Below are positions 20,265 through 25,409 of a stretch of DNA of 64,000 nucleotides, one piece after another (the first letter of the stretch is position 1; each line of letters starts with the position of its first letter). The translations under genes and the position numbers were made by a program. The notes beneath the pieces were generated by a model. It did no database searches. It was given only the letters and a program-made list of their open reading frames with translations, and was not told the DNA's origin. Source of the stretch: Gemmatimonadaceae bacterium (GTDB lineage: Bacteria; Gemmatimonadota; Gemmatimonadetes; Gemmatimonadales; Gemmatimonadaceae); the NCBI GenBank assembly GCA_036496605.1, contig DASXKV010000035.1, positions 62,001 through 126,000 on the forward strand, given 5' to 3'.

Positions 20265-20567
20265 CTAGTCGTCCGCGCCGAGCGCCGCCCTTGCGCGGCG
20301 TTCCGTTCGCAGGTCCAGCTCGAGTTGCTGATCGTCCTCGTCAGGCAAATCCATCTCCAGCTGGACCATCCGCTGGCGGTGCTGCAGCATCCTGATGGGT
20401 GCGCGCAAGCTGGCACGCGGTGAGTTGACGATCGCGAGCGCCTCCGCGCGCACGTCGCCTGGGAGCTGCGTTGCCAGCCCGTGCTCGAGCAGCTCGCGGA
20501 CCCGCGCCTGATCGCGCCGCATCGCGGCGCGATACACTTGATCGAGATACTCGAGAAGGATACTCAT
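20265..20567 (-). CDS. Small helical protein, last gene of the NHEJ operon
   Basis: A 100-residue mostly helical protein beginning at ATG 20567 (MSILLEYLDQVYRAAMRRDQ). It has an RVRELLEHGLATQLP segment and an acidic C-terminal stretch (LEMDLPDEDDQQLELDL). No domain is recognised. It follows the next gene upstream by 21 bases on the same strand, so it is probably the fifth gene of the ku-ligD transcript. A role in break repair is only suggested by position. Confidence 0.62.
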   Translation of the reverse strand: MSILLEYLDQVYRAAMRRDQARVRELLEHGLATQLPGDVRAEALAIVNSPRASLRAPIRMLQHRQRMVQLEMDLPDEDDQQLELDLRTERRARAALGADD

Positions 20568-20588
20568 CACCGAGGTTTGCCTCACGAG

Positions 20589-21254
20589 TTACTCGCGCCG
20601 CGCCGCTTCCTTTCGCGGTCGCGTCACGCGCGAAACAGCGCGCGCGTTCTCGAGCTCGTCCACATACCACTTCAGCGGGATCTCGAGGTCTGACATTTCG
20701 TCCGCTGCCTCGGCGACGGCGAACTGCCGCTCGAGCCAGAGGACGAGACGGACGATGTAATCGCGCTCCAGCGCGCGCATCATCGAGAGGAGCGCGCAAT
20801 AGCCGGCGGGTGCCGACTCGCCCAGCCGTCGCTCGTAGCGATTGATGACCGCGGCCAGGTCAGCCGTGTCGAGCCAGGTGGCTTGCGACCATCGCGGGTC
20901 GGTCACGCGAGCGAATGGCTCCGTCGTCGTCCAGAGTTGCGACCGTCCACGCTTGATCCAATCCTCGGCCTCGGCGACACTCACGATGTTGGGCGCATCT
21001 CCACCGCGTGGGCCGGCGACACGCCAGGTGTACTCGTCTCGAACGGCAAGGGAGACGTCGCTCGGCACGCCGAGCGCACTCAGCGCCTCGTCGTCTTCAT
21101 CGACACTCGCTCCGACGAGCAGTGGCGGAAGATGCTCATCGCGCGGCAATGCCGGATGCGCGTAGAGCCACCATGTGCCACCGCGCACGCGGCACTCCAC
21201 GAACGCGTGCACGACGCACCGCCACGCCGGCTCGATCGGTAGCTCGTTAGGCAT
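20589..21254 (-). CDS. Unknown protein in the NHEJ operon
   Basis: A 221-residue soluble protein whose ATG at 21254 overlaps the end of the LigD polymerase gene by eight bases, showing translational coupling. It is rich in Trp and Arg (GGTWWLYAHPALPRDEHLPP, ATWLDTADLAAVINRYERR) and its C-terminal third is helical and basic. I do not recognise a nuclease, ligase or primase motif. Its tight coupling to the NHEJ genes makes an accessory end-joining role worth testing; the sequence itself does not show one. Confidence 0.65.
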   Translation of the reverse strand: MPNELPIEPAWRCVVHAFVECRVRGGTWWLYAHPALPRDEHLPPLLVGASVDEDDEALSALGVPSDVSLAVRDEYTWRVAGPRGGDAPNIVSVAEAEDWIKRGRSQLWTTTEPFARVTDPRWSQATWLDTADLAAVINRYERRLGESAPAGYCALLSMMRALERDYIVRLVLWLERQFAVAEAADEMSDLEIPLKWYVDELENARAVSRVTRPRKEAARRE

Positions 21255-22284
21255 CGCCGAGAAGTCGTCGTGGATCGTTCGCGCGGCGCATCCCCTCGCG
21301 CCAGAGGTCGCCGGTCTCGCGAAGGCGCGCGCTCATCGATTCGATCGTGAAGTCGCGCGGGTCGAGCGACGGCGTGAGCTCGCTCCAGCGCAGCGGTGTC
21401 GAGACGGTCGCATCCGGCGTCGCTCGCGCCGAGTAGACGCTCGCGACCGTCTTGCCGCGAATGTTCTGGAGGAAATCGACGTATACCGCGCTCGTTGGGC
21501 GCGACTGAACCCAGCGCGTGACCGTCGTCTCGCGAGGATGTCGCTCGGCGACGCGCGTTGCAACGATCTCGGCGACGAGACGCGCCGTTTCGTTAGGCGT
21601 GCCAGCCACGAGGGGAAGTACGATGTGGATACCGGACGAACCCGAGGTCTTGGGTACCCCGTGCAAGCCGAGCCGCTCCAGCTCTTCGCCAACCCAGAGC
21701 GCGACGTCGACCACGCGCCGGAAGGACGCGCGCGGTCCCGGATCCAGATCCACGATGGCGTAATCGGCAGATCCAACCGACTGCACCTTCGAGTGCCACG
21801 GATCGATCGAGATCGCCCCGAGTTGAACGATGTAGAGCAGTGTCGTGAGATTCCCGCCGATCAGTCGCTGCTGCGTTTTGAGCCCTTCGTCCTCGACCGA
21901 TTCGACCCGCACGCCGGGCGGCGGAGCTTCCGGAGCACGCTGTTGGTAAAACGACTGATCGCCGATACCATGCGGAAAGCGCTTCATGACGAGCGCTCGG
22001 TCGGTAATCGCTGGCAACAGGAAGGGCGAGACGCTGGCATAGTACGCCATGAGATCGCCCTTGGTGTAGCCGCGCTTCGGGAAGAAAGGCTTGTCGAGAT
22101 TGGAAACCTCGAGGCGTTCATCGCCGCCGAGGTTGAGCGTCCCGGGTTCGCCGGCCTCCTCGAGCTCCGCGATGGCACCAATGAGATCGCGAATACGAGA
22201 GCCGGAGAGTGGGCGCGCGCTCGCGCGGGGTCGTGGCCGGCGTGGCCGTGAACGCCGGTTGACCGATGAAAAAACGCTCATCAT
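21247..22284 (-). CDS. ligD: LigD-type DNA polymerase/primase domain, stand-alone
   Basis: A 345-residue archaeo-eukaryotic primase-like polymerase of the LigD POL family, which fills and extends ends during non-homologous end joining. Typical motifs: SNLDKPFFPKRGYTKGDLMAYY, MKRFPHGI, the catalytic DYAIVDLDPG, GSSGIHIVLPL and RVAERHP. The C-terminal ESMSARLRETGDLW is also family-typical. The stop TAA lies inside a GCCTAACG word. ATG 22284 (or 22281) overlaps the ligase stop in ATGATGA, so this is a LigD split at the ligase/polymerase junction. A short basic N-terminal tail precedes the domain. Confidence 0.93.
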   Translation of the reverse strand: MMSVFSSVNRRSRPRRPRPRASARPLSGSRIRDLIGAIAELEEAGEPGTLNLGGDERLEVSNLDKPFFPKRGYTKGDLMAYYASVSPFLLPAITDRALVMKRFPHGIGDQSFYQQRAPEAPPPGVRVESVEDEGLKTQQRLIGGNLTTLLYIVQLGAISIDPWHSKVQSVGSADYAIVDLDPGPRASFRRVVDVALWVGEELERLGLHGVPKTSGSSGIHIVLPLVAGTPNETARLVAEIVATRVAERHPRETTVTRWVQSRPTSAVYVDFLQNIRGKTVASVYSARATPDATVSTPLRWSELTPSLDPRDFTIESMSARLRETGDLWREGMRRANDPRRLLGDA

Positions 22285-24056
22285 GCCGACGCTCGCGCGC
22301 GCGTCCTCGTGCGCGTCGGGCGACGTTCACCGGCGCGTTTCGCGGCGGTCACGCCGGCCGACACGGGCTCGCGTCGGACCGACTGGGGATCCTTGTCCTC
22401 GCGAGTGCCGAGAAAGATCGGTTGGCGCAGCTTCCCGTCCGACGTCCACTCGTTGAACTTCACCTCGACGACGACGCGCGGCCGAACCCAGTGGGCTCGC
22501 TCGTTCGTCCGTGGTTCCTTCACGAATGGACTCGTCTTGCGCTCGAGCGCGTGGAGCTGTCGATACATCGCACCGAGCGAGGCACGCGAGAATCCGCCGC
22601 CAGTGTGTCCCGCATACACGAGATGGCCCGAGTCGTCGTAATAGCCAAGCAGAATGGCGCCGAGGTGCTGACGCGAATTCCGCGGCTCGGTGTATCCACC
22701 AACGACGAATTCCTGGCGCTGTTCCACTTTGAGCTTGAGCCAGGCGCGCGATCGCCTGCCCGGCTCATAGATCGCGTCTTTGCGCTTCGCGATCACACCT
22801 TCCCATCCGCGCGCGCGCGCCTGGGCGAGCAGTTTTGTGGGATCTCCGGACAGGGAATCGCTGATGCGCAGCACGTGCGGCACCGGGGGGATCAACAACT
22901 GGAGCAGATGCGCTCGCCGCACGTGCTGCGCCTCATTCATCAGCGTTTCGTCACCATCCAGAAGAACATCGAAAACGACATACGCGACGGGAGTGTCGCC
23001 GCGCCGCGCCGCAATGTGCGCGCGGTCGGTCGCGTGCATTCGCCCCTGCAACTGCTGAAATCGGGCGGGTGCGTCACCATCGAGAGCGACGAGCTCACCG
23101 TCGAGTACGAAAGGTTTCTTGCGCGCGCGAGACAGACCCGCGAGCGCATCGACAATCTCGGGAAACTGAGTCGTCTTGGAATTACCGTTACGGCTGAGGA
23201 GGGACACCGAGCCATCCGCCACGAAAGCAAGGATGCGAATGCCGTCGTACTTCGGCTCGAATGTCCACTCCTCGCCGTTAGGTATTTCCTCGCCGACACT
23301 GGCCAGCATCGGCGCCAGTGCGCGGCCGATCGTCGTTGGGCGCGTTGCGTGCGCGCGCGCCGTTCCGGAAGCAATCGTTCGTCTGGTTCGCCGTACCTGT
23401 CGTTCGGACCGATTGCTGTGCCATACGCGCTTCGCCTCCGCGGCGATACGTTCCATCGGCCGACCGGTGGCGACGGAGGTCGTCACGTTTGCCGCGATGT
23501 CGGAGCCGCGCTCGGCATGTTCGTCGTCGCGCTTGATCAACAGCCACTTCGGCTTGCTCTCCGTCGCATCGTTCGCGCGAGTGCGCACCAGCGAGAAGAC
23601 GCCGTGCAATCGTTCACCGAACAACCGCACCGTTAGGCGACCGCGATGAAATGCCTGGCGCAACGCACGCTCGGCGTCGGCGCCTTCGGCCAGATCCGCG
23701 GGCTCGAACGTGCCGCGATCCCAGAGCATCACCGTACCGCCGCCGTACTCGCCATCCGGGATGACACCTTCGAAGGTGTTGTACTCGATTGGATGATCCT
23801 CGACCTCGACGGCGAGACGGCGCGCGGCCGGGTCGAGACTCGGTCCCTTGGGCACCGCCCAGCTTCTCATGACGCCGCCGAGCTCGAGGCGGAGGTCGTA
23901 GTGCAGATGACTCGCGGCGTGCTTCTGGATCACGAAGGCGAGCGCACGGCCCAGCCGAGGGACAATGACTCCACCGCGCGGTTCGGCGGTGACGCGAAAG
24001 TCGCGTTTCTCTCGATATGCGTTGAGCTTCCGTCCAATCGCGGCCGGTGTCGTCAT
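22281..24056 (-). CDS. ligD: LigD: 3'-phosphoesterase plus ATP-dependent DNA ligase
   Basis: A 591-residue LigD without its polymerase. Residues about 15-190 are the phosphoesterase domain (FVIQKHAASHLHYDLRLE, WAVPKGPSLDP, DGEYGGGTVMLWDRG), which trims 3' ends. A basic linker follows. The ligase core (about 245-560) has the adenylated Lys269 in EPKYDGIR, FVLDGELVALDG, EGVIAKRKDAIYEPGRRS and KLKVEQRQEFVVGGY. The C-terminus is Arg/Thr rich. Domain order PE-Lig followed by a separate POL gene matches Pseudomonas-type LigD cut in two. The gene follows ku after nine bases. Confidence 0.95.
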   Translation of the reverse strand: MTTPAAIGRKLNAYREKRDFRVTAEPRGGVIVPRLGRALAFVIQKHAASHLHYDLRLELGGVMRSWAVPKGPSLDPAARRLAVEVEDHPIEYNTFEGVIPDGEYGGGTVMLWDRGTFEPADLAEGADAERALRQAFHRGRLTVRLFGERLHGVFSLVRTRANDATESKPKWLLIKRDDEHAERGSDIAANVTTSVATGRPMERIAAEAKRVWHSNRSERQVRRTRRTIASGTARAHATRPTTIGRALAPMLASVGEEIPNGEEWTFEPKYDGIRILAFVADGSVSLLSRNGNSKTTQFPEIVDALAGLSRARKKPFVLDGELVALDGDAPARFQQLQGRMHATDRAHIAARRGDTPVAYVVFDVLLDGDETLMNEAQHVRRAHLLQLLIPPVPHVLRISDSLSGDPTKLLAQARARGWEGVIAKRKDAIYEPGRRSRAWLKLKVEQRQEFVVGGYTEPRNSRQHLGAILLGYYDDSGHLVYAGHTGGGFSRASLGAMYRQLHALERKTSPFVKEPRTNERAHWVRPRVVVEVKFNEWTSDGKLRQPIFLGTREDKDPQSVRREPVSAGVTAAKRAGERRPTRTRTRARASA

Positions 24057-24065
24057 CGATGAGCG

Positions 24066-24917
24066 TTAGGCGGTCTTGCGACGCGTGCGGGCGCGTGAAT
24101 GACGTCGCCCTTCGGGCGTCTTTTCGCCGCCGCGCGCGCGGGCTTTTCCCTGCGACAGACTCTCCTGCAAACGGGCCATCAGGTCCACGACAGGCGTCGC
24201 CTCCAGCTCCTCCGGCTCCGCCACCTCCACCTTCTTGCCCTTGAGCTTCGCCTTGATGATGCGCATCAAGTTGTTGCGATAATCATCCTCGTACTTCGAG
24301 GCGTCGAACGATTCCGTGAGATTGCCGATGAGTTGCTCGGCCATCTGCAATTCCTGTGGTCGAACGGCCTCCGACGACGGAAACGAATAGGTGTTCGTAT
24401 TTACTAATTCATCGCCGAAGCGCATGATCTCGAGCACCATCGCATCGCCGATGACTTTGAGGCCGGCGAGATGGTGCGAGTTCGACCGCATCGTGATCTT
24501 GCCGACGCCGACGGTGCCGGTGTTCCGAATCGCCTCACGCAGGAGCGCGTAGGGCTTCTCGCCACCTTTCGCCGGCAACACGTAATAGGGCGTCTCGAAA
24601 TACCGCGGATCGATTTCGTCGGTGGCGACGAAGTCGAGAATCTCGAACACCTTCGAGGATTCGAGTGCGGCGGCCTTGAAATCGTCGTCGGTCATTTCGA
24701 CGAAGCGACCTTTCGCATATTCGTAACCTTTGACGATATCGTCCCAGGGGACCGTCTTGCCATCCTTCTGGCAAACGCGCTCGTAACGTATGGGCGAATG
24801 ATCGCTGCTATGCAATAAGCGAAAACTCACACGCTCGCCCGCGCGAATAGCGGAGTAGAGCTGGACGGGAATATTCACAAGTCCGAAACTCAGCGCGCCC
24901 TTCCAGATCGGTCGCAT
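24066..24917 (-). CDS. ku: Ku, DNA end-binding protein
   Basis: Bacterial Ku forms a homodimeric ring on broken DNA ends and recruits LigD. The 283-residue protein has the signature opening MRPIWKGALSFGLVNIPVQLYSA, written here only in part, with CQKDGKTVP, KGYEYAKGRFVEM and ELQMAEQLIGNL in order. The last 35 residues are Arg/Lys/Gly rich, the extended basic tail that helps DNA threading and LigD contact. The stop TAA lies in a GCCTAACG word. ATG 24917 leads the operon; the upstream 490 bases hold DnaA-box-like sites. Confidence 0.97.
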   Translation of the reverse strand: MRPIWKGALSFGLVNIPVQLYSAIRAGERVSFRLLHSSDHSPIRYERVCQKDGKTVPWDDIVKGYEYAKGRFVEMTDDDFKAAALESSKVFEILDFVATDEIDPRYFETPYYVLPAKGGEKPYALLREAIRNTGTVGVGKITMRSNSHHLAGLKVIGDAMVLEIMRFGDELVNTNTYSFPSSEAVRPQELQMAEQLIGNLTESFDASKYEDDYRNNLMRIIKAKLKGKKVEVAEPEELEATPVVDLMARLQESLSQGKARARGGEKTPEGRRHSRARTRRKTA

Positions 24918-25409
24918 GATCGTGTTGTACCCGTCGCGTGTTTGAGGGGAGCCGTTAGAAGGGCAACTCCGATGCTATCAACACGCAATGCACATTCGCT
25001 GTGGAAAGGCGCAAAGTTCTCCACGTGTGCACCAGTGGAGGAGCGAGTTCTCAACAGACAATCCACAGGAGTTGCGCGTTCTTGAATCACCGATTCGCCG
25101 TCTCGTCACTCGGCGCTTCGCTTTTTCACATCCGTTGCGCGTCGAGGCCGTGGGGAAAAAAGGTTCTCAAGACTCTTCCACATGCGATATCAACACGAAG
25201 CGACGACTGGTTCAGCGTGAATTCATCACGAGTTACGACGTTCTCGACAGTTTTCCACAATTGCTATCCACATAAAACACAATCACTTAGCATCGTTTTT
25301 CCTATTGCGCGCCGAAATCGGTTCTTCTAGGTTCACCTCCCCAACGTCATATCGACGTCCCCACCGCACGATTCGTTCGTACTTACCGCCCTCTTCCCAC
25401 CACCTTCCC
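24918..25409. promoter_or_regulatory. AT-richer intergenic region with a cluster of DnaA-box-like sites
   Basis: Compared with TTWTNCACA, I find an exact match at 25251-25259 (TTTTCCACA), and one-mismatch sites at 25264-25272 (CTATCCACA), 25074-adjacent two-mismatch CAATCCACA at 25059-25067, TCTTCCACA at 25074+100 (25174-25182) and, on the minus strand, CTTTCCACA at 25000-25008 and TTTTCCCCA at 25151-25159. The right part (about 25240-25325) is AT-rich. Such clustering suggests an origin-like or DnaA-regulated region. No dnaA, dnaN or par gene is near, so this may instead be a DnaA titration or promoter site for ku. Confidence 0.5.

Follow-up and report, generated by a model that had tools for sequence, protein, structure and literature searches.

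To our knowledge, it is poorly understood how bacteria bar error-prone end joining while a second copy of the chromosome is available. Here we ask what is served by a cluster of DnaA-box-like sites lying immediately upstream of ku in a 64,000-nucleotide stretch of Gemmatimonadaceae DNA (the window), which is part of contig C35 in the 70-contig draft genome G000. A preliminary description of this DNA offered three readings of the cluster: a displaced oriC, a datA-like titration site or DnaA control of repair genes. The last of these fits best, given that the array at the ku promoter is conserved, that it overlies predicted promoter elements and that ku has a DnaA paralogue as its partner in other genera; for the genome that carries the window, we find no support for a displaced oriC. 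We give about an even chance to the array being a DnaA-bound bidirectional control region for the end-joining (NHEJ) operon and a small conserved divergent gene, a region that could possibly also act like datA or DARS. Collectively, these features suggest that break repair by Ku and ligase may be tied to the replication state of the chromosome in some soil Gemmatimonadaceae.

A dense cluster of DnaA-box-like sites upstream of ku

The 492-bp region upstream of ku (positions 24918–25409) contains two exact TTWTNCACA sites, six sites with at most one mismatch to this pattern and 12 sites with at most two mismatches from TTATCCACA (Table 1). As a control, 500 dinucleotide shuffles gave corresponding means of 0.04, 0.91 (maximum 4) and 1.10 (maximum 5); the observed counts were matched by none of the 500 for any of the three count types, and the reversed motif yielded 0, 0 and 1 matches at the same thresholds. 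All of the DnaA-like sites listed in the preliminary description, some on each strand, are present at the positions given there. The exact site that it reported (25251–25259) is real, but is not the only one, as TTTTTCACA had been overlooked; the window contains no exact TTWTNCACA match besides these two array sites (25122 and 25251).

Across 392 kb from two contigs of the same genome, the densest 500 bp is the ku array, with seven TTWTNCACA sites at no more than one mismatch, followed by the dnaA–dnaN region with four. Exact sites number 40 genome-wide, compared with 47 for the reversed pattern, and this lack of enrichment indicates that the array signal is one of local clustering. An exact TTTTCCACA is also found at G000:C35:186125–186133, in the gap between the apparent ftsA and ftsZ genes.

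The AT-rich stretch noted earlier at 25240–25325 was borne out, with a GC content of 0.419 compared with 0.638 for the window; just 0.09% of 86-bp windows are lower, and the lowest-GC one in the window (GC 0.36) lies around 46627. Although the array region is AT-richer than average, chance clustering in such intergenic DNA is hardly credible as an explanation for the array: none of the shuffles reached the observed counts, and conservation of the array in ten genomes already refutes it. LexA-like GTTC repeats were also considered and rejected, as the apparent GTTCTC repeats are the upstream halves of tandem boxes (GTTCTCGACA-TTTTCCACA).

Table 1. Features of the ku locus, in window coordinates; promoters are predictions.
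Feature	Position	Strand	Remarks
ORF106, downstream member of the gene row	20265–20585	−	Directly behind the promoter in G139
LigD primase-polymerase domain protein (pol)	21247–22284	−
ligD, phosphoesterase and ligase domains	22281–24056	−
ku	24066–24917	−	Pfam Ku, 5e-46
DnaA-box array, intergenic	24918–25409		Between ku (−) and small divergent gene (+)
Predicted sigma54-type promoter of ku operon, TAGCATcggagTTGCC	24962–24977	−	GGCAYN5TTGC (0–1 mismatches) precedes ku in most of the family genomes tested
ku-proximal block: CTATCAACA (24975, +), CAATGCACA (24986, +), CTTTCCACA (25000–25008, −)	24975–25008		Conserved block in alignment
Pair: TTCTCAACA (25048), CAATCCACA (25059–25067)	25048–25067	+	Start to start, 11 bp
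Second exact DnaA box, TTTTTCACA	25122–25130	+
Site TTTTCCCCA	25151–25159	−
Central pair: TCTTCCACA (25174–25182), ATATCAACA (25187)	25174–25195	+	Start to start, 13 bp
Distal triple: TTCTCGACA (25241), TTTTCCACA (25251–25259, exact), CTATCCACA (25264–25272)	25241–25272	+	Start to start, 10 and 13 bp; aligned in relatives
GCTAAGTGATTGTG	25278–25291	−	Counterpart of conserved TAA(G/C)TCGTTGT element, also near box pairs beside parAB
Predicted sigma70-type promoter of divergent gene, TTGCGC-N17-TAGGTT	25305–25333	+	Conserved in alignment, read by eye
Small divergent gene, 124 aa	25410–25784	+	Conserved next to array

Motif and spacing of the sites

An unsupervised motif search returned a strand-symmetric form, because TGTSSACA is near-palindromic, and we instead used a core-conditioned table, in which TCCACA alone was fixed and the first three positions were not preset. 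Among 47 such sites in nine array genomes, position 2 is T in 81% (background 7%), position 3 is A, G or T and position 1 is C or T, which gives the motif NYTDTCCACA. By sequence, this motif is a DnaA box of the TTATCCACA or TTGTCCACA kind, the latter being the DnaA box of high-GC DNA (PMC4285127), and fits TTWTNCACA. Several boxes of the array have TCGACA or TCAACA cores, which are unusual for DnaA. The spacings between same-strand sites peak at 11 and 13 bp, the two being about equally common. E. coli DnaA favours 9-mers separated by 2–3 bp, that is, 11–12 bp from start to start (PMC11317965); the 11-bp pairs match this preference, whereas the 13-bp pairs, with their 4-bp gaps, fall outside it.

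The array overlaps predicted promoters

The genes ku, ligD and pol and two additional open reading frames share one orientation, and the 124-residue product of the gene on the opposite side of the array matched no Pfam family. The sequence GGCAYN5TTGC, exact or with one mismatch, occurs about 50–65 bp before the ku start codon in most genera, and in a control of 1,000 random windows it was exact in none and within one mismatch in 4.6%. The array genomes mostly carry TAGCAYN5TTGC, with the box TGTTGATAGC overlapping its predicted −24 element; in the window, CTATCAACA (24975, plus strand) overlaps the −24 element of the predicted ku promoter. This placement of boxes at or over predicted promoters is conserved, and boxes also lie close to the predicted divergent promoter. 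An rpoN gene is present in G000, G016, G138, G011 and G004; none was found in G002, which is incomplete.

Conservation of the array across Gemmatimonadaceae

A close Ku is encoded in 53 of 179 family genomes. Nine of the 35 ku upstream regions examined carry the array, the remaining regions holding 0–3 sites, and the array genomes with ku fall into four genera: g1 (G000 and G002), g15 (G135–G138 and G016), g10 (G011) and g3 (G004). The closest relative in the search, G002, belongs to the same genus as G000, and the two are 91% identical at box positions and 70% identical outside them, with boxes defined on G000. The alignment comprises three parts: a ku-proximal block, TnTCCACA-n-TGTGGACA-n-TGTTGATAGCAy-N5-TTGC; the central tandem pair; and the distal triple, followed by TAAG(T/C)-GTTGT and then the −35 and −10 elements of the divergent gene. 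Furthermore, 41 genomes contain exactly three copies of TCCACANNNGCTATCCACA, all of them upstream of ku, and 11 of the 12 tandem pairs in five genomes are located at ku (control, 0).

Between G000 and genus g15, the shared stretch around the array spans just about −3 to +7 kb, so the array moves with its gene cluster and marks no chromosome position. In G139, a member of g15, no close Ku was found in the 179-genome family search. The corresponding place in this genome retains the array together with TAGCAYN5TTGC and the divergent gene but has lost ku, ligD and pol, with the ORF106 homologue 0.3–0.5 kb from the array compared with 3.2–3.5 kb in its relatives. The retention of the array in the absence of ku indicates that its job is not solely Ku.

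The dnaA–dnaN origin lies on another contig

Described earlier as not nearby, dnaA and dnaN are absent from the window; a search for the position of dnaA located both, adjacent to each other, on contig C4. Their intergenic region contains boxes, then DnaA-trio repeats (CTACTACGACTGCTAG; CTCTACTACGACTGCTAGG) together with AT-rich DNA, and this boxes-then-trio layout is comparable in nearly all of ten genomes compared. Boxes combined with a DnaA-trio constitute an origin layout (PMC8287927). In the ku region (24918–25409), we found no DnaA-trio, that is, no TA(A/G) repeats. The array thus resembles a bacterial oriC with its basal unwinding system in that its boxes adjoin AT-rich DNA, but differs from it in having no DnaA-trio and in not lying beside dnaA and dnaN, and the same genome has a proper oriC elsewhere. 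A displaced oriC was consequently rejected as the main reading for this genome, in which the window contig also displays no clear GC-skew switch at ku. A plasmid or chromid origin was rejected as well, since C35 carries apparent core chromosomal genes (ftsZ, enolase and aminoacyl-tRNA synthetases); these, together with ftsA, are what we take the genes to be from their sequences, rather than from a family search.

The skew data from the relatives keep one origin reading in play. In the 20-kb comparison, the skew difference at the array is 0.042–0.054 in G138, G016 and G137 (98th–99th percentile) and 0.030 in G139 (92nd percentile), and it lies at about the 70th percentile in G000 and G011. The g15 switch at the ku array falls at about 125 kb in G138:C28, 128 kb in G016:C1 and 156 kb in G137:C7, and coding strand bias does not explain it. 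Because of this switch, we retain as a rival, albeit a very improbable one, that the array is a displaced or second chromosomal origin. The box array with its AT-rich stretch and the coincidence of the array with the skew switch in four g15 genomes would be consistent with such an origin. However, synteny links at least three of these genomes (G138, G016 and G137), and in part G139, which makes the switch largely one observation; boxes, DnaA-trios and AT-rich DNA occur at dnaA–dnaN in nearly all of the relatives checked; no trio accompanies the boxes at ku; and the skew difference in G000 and G011 is at about the 70th percentile.

Tandem box pairs beside parAB

Eight of the 16 loci fetched for tandem pairs across the family adjoin parA or parB in a simple motif test, and several of these parAB-side pairs are a perfect GTTATCCACAGTTATCCACA. 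Perfect or near-perfect double boxes beside parAB are present at L232–L241 and others (G075, G076, G074, G042, G041, G174, G017 and G018). The single tandem pairs on the parAB side are intergenic and mostly lie about 17–35 kb from dnaA. Noted along with them was the cumulative GC-skew minimum of C4, at about 130–150 kb, which is nearer parAB (123–125 kb) than dnaA (97 kb). The recurrence of tandem pairs beside parAB supports the DnaA identity of the motif. No tandem pair follows parB in G138 and G016, both of which have the ku array, and G137 and G000 have weak parB-side sites only. The sequences TAAGTC and TAACTC are enriched near boxes at both ku and parAB, an enrichment inflated by the whole-contig background, as intergenic DNA is AT-rich.

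These pairs bear on the datA-like site proposed in the preliminary description, or more broadly on a datA/DARS-like element, in which the array would serve to titrate, inactivate or reactivate DnaA, would merely happen to be located at the ku promoter and would affect replication timing, not transcription. E. coli DARS1, DARS2 and datA are likewise located upstream of genes (PMC11317965), and the array resembles datA in that strong and weak boxes are gathered in a single main cluster away from oriC. Several observations favour such an element: the array outlives ku, ligD and pol in G139, tandem pairs adjoin parAB in other genera and are missing there from two genomes with the ku array, and the TAA(G/C)TC element accompanies the boxes at both places. 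Unlike E. coli datA, however, the array sits at two predicted promoters, with boxes overlapping the predicted element of the ku promoter, and follows one operon instead of keeping a chromosome position. The complementarity between ku and parAB comes, moreover, from few genomes, and G000 keeps a weak parB-side site. On balance, we consider an exclusively datA/DARS-like role rather unlikely, although it is the likeliest of the rival readings.

DnaA-family proteins as candidate array binders

The DnaA of G000 keeps the recognition helix GGRDHSTVIHS in domain IV, and no other protein with a DnaA DNA-binding domain (domain IV) was found in this genome. A 647-residue paralogue with two Bac_DnaA ATPase (AAA+) domains, encoded at G000:C35:158411–160351, about 32 kb past the end of the window, was rejected as the array binder because it has no domain IV. 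Its gene directly follows that of a small MglA-like GTPase, and similar two-domain proteins are present in most of the relatives searched.

In four genomes of three genera (G012:C440, G042:C33, G047:C138 and G151:C31), the gene divergent from ku encodes a different DnaA paralogue, which has an AAA+ domain but lacks domain I. The reading frames of G042, G047 and G151 show its domain IV; the G012 paralogue is cut by the contig end, and we assume that a matching C-terminal part, located on another contig, comes from the same gene. Short box-like sequences lie between the paralogue and ku in G012, G042 and G151. The recognition motif is altered in the ku-adjoining paralogues of G042 and G047, and in the g14 copies RDHSTV is replaced by RD(S/T)STV. 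Unlinked copies occur in G041, G044 and G046, and no paralogue of the ku-paired kind was found in the array genomes.

The sites could instead belong to another regulator with a TGTGGA core, such as an enhancer-binding protein that activates the ku sigma54 promoter. Sigma54 promoters require an activator, the sigma54-like ku promoter is strong across the family, and TGTGGACA-type sites are near-palindromic. We nevertheless judge this explanation unlikely, as the motif in G000 is asymmetric and matches DnaA boxes, similar tandem pairs, some of them a perfect GTTATCCACAGTTATCCACA, are seen again next to parAB in the vicinity of the origin, DnaA-family genes adjoin ku, and the genera with an exact sigma54 promoter mostly do not have the array.

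A proposed link between replication and end joining

For the preferred reading, DnaA control of the NHEJ operon, we infer DnaA binding, regulation and its sign along the following lines. DnaA would nucleate at the near-consensus boxes and extend from there across the tandem boxes, which are partly degenerate, thereby covering the −24 element of the ku–ligD–pol promoter as well as the DNA preceding the divergent promoter. Expression of the NHEJ operon would then track the amount or the ATP state of DnaA, the likeliest direction being that NHEJ is repressed during active replication and relieved in slow-growing or non-growing cells. Several features argue against promoter control by DnaA: about a dozen sites are many for one promoter, the array is missing from most of the family genomes with ku, and G139 kept both array and promoter after the loss of ku, ligD and pol. 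The 13-bp pairs, the TCGACA and TCAACA cores and the altered recognition motif of the G042 and G047 paralogues also count against it.

In E. coli, DnaA binds at the repair genes uvrB, mutH and polA (PMC11317965). The array resembles these DnaA-regulated promoters, DARS1 (uvrB), DARS2 (mutH) and polA, in its clustered boxes, many of them in close pairs, upstream of DNA-repair genes. It differs from them in serving a double-strand-break end-joining operon, in its dozen or so sites and in its sigma54-like promoter.

Going further, we tentatively propose a replication-to-repair switch, in which DnaA, or a dedicated ku-adjoining paralogue in other genera, would directly control the NHEJ operon, so that end joining would follow the replication state, and in which, within a single family, the DnaA-site element would have switched between a place at parAB and one at the ku operon. 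No report of DnaA control of ku was found in the part of the open-access literature that was covered. The array at the NHEJ promoter, together with the ku-side DnaA paralogue in sister genera, provides a direct and testable link from replication control to repair pathway choice. G000 also encodes a second, distant Ku homologue (G000:C54:224549–225340), with 34% identity.
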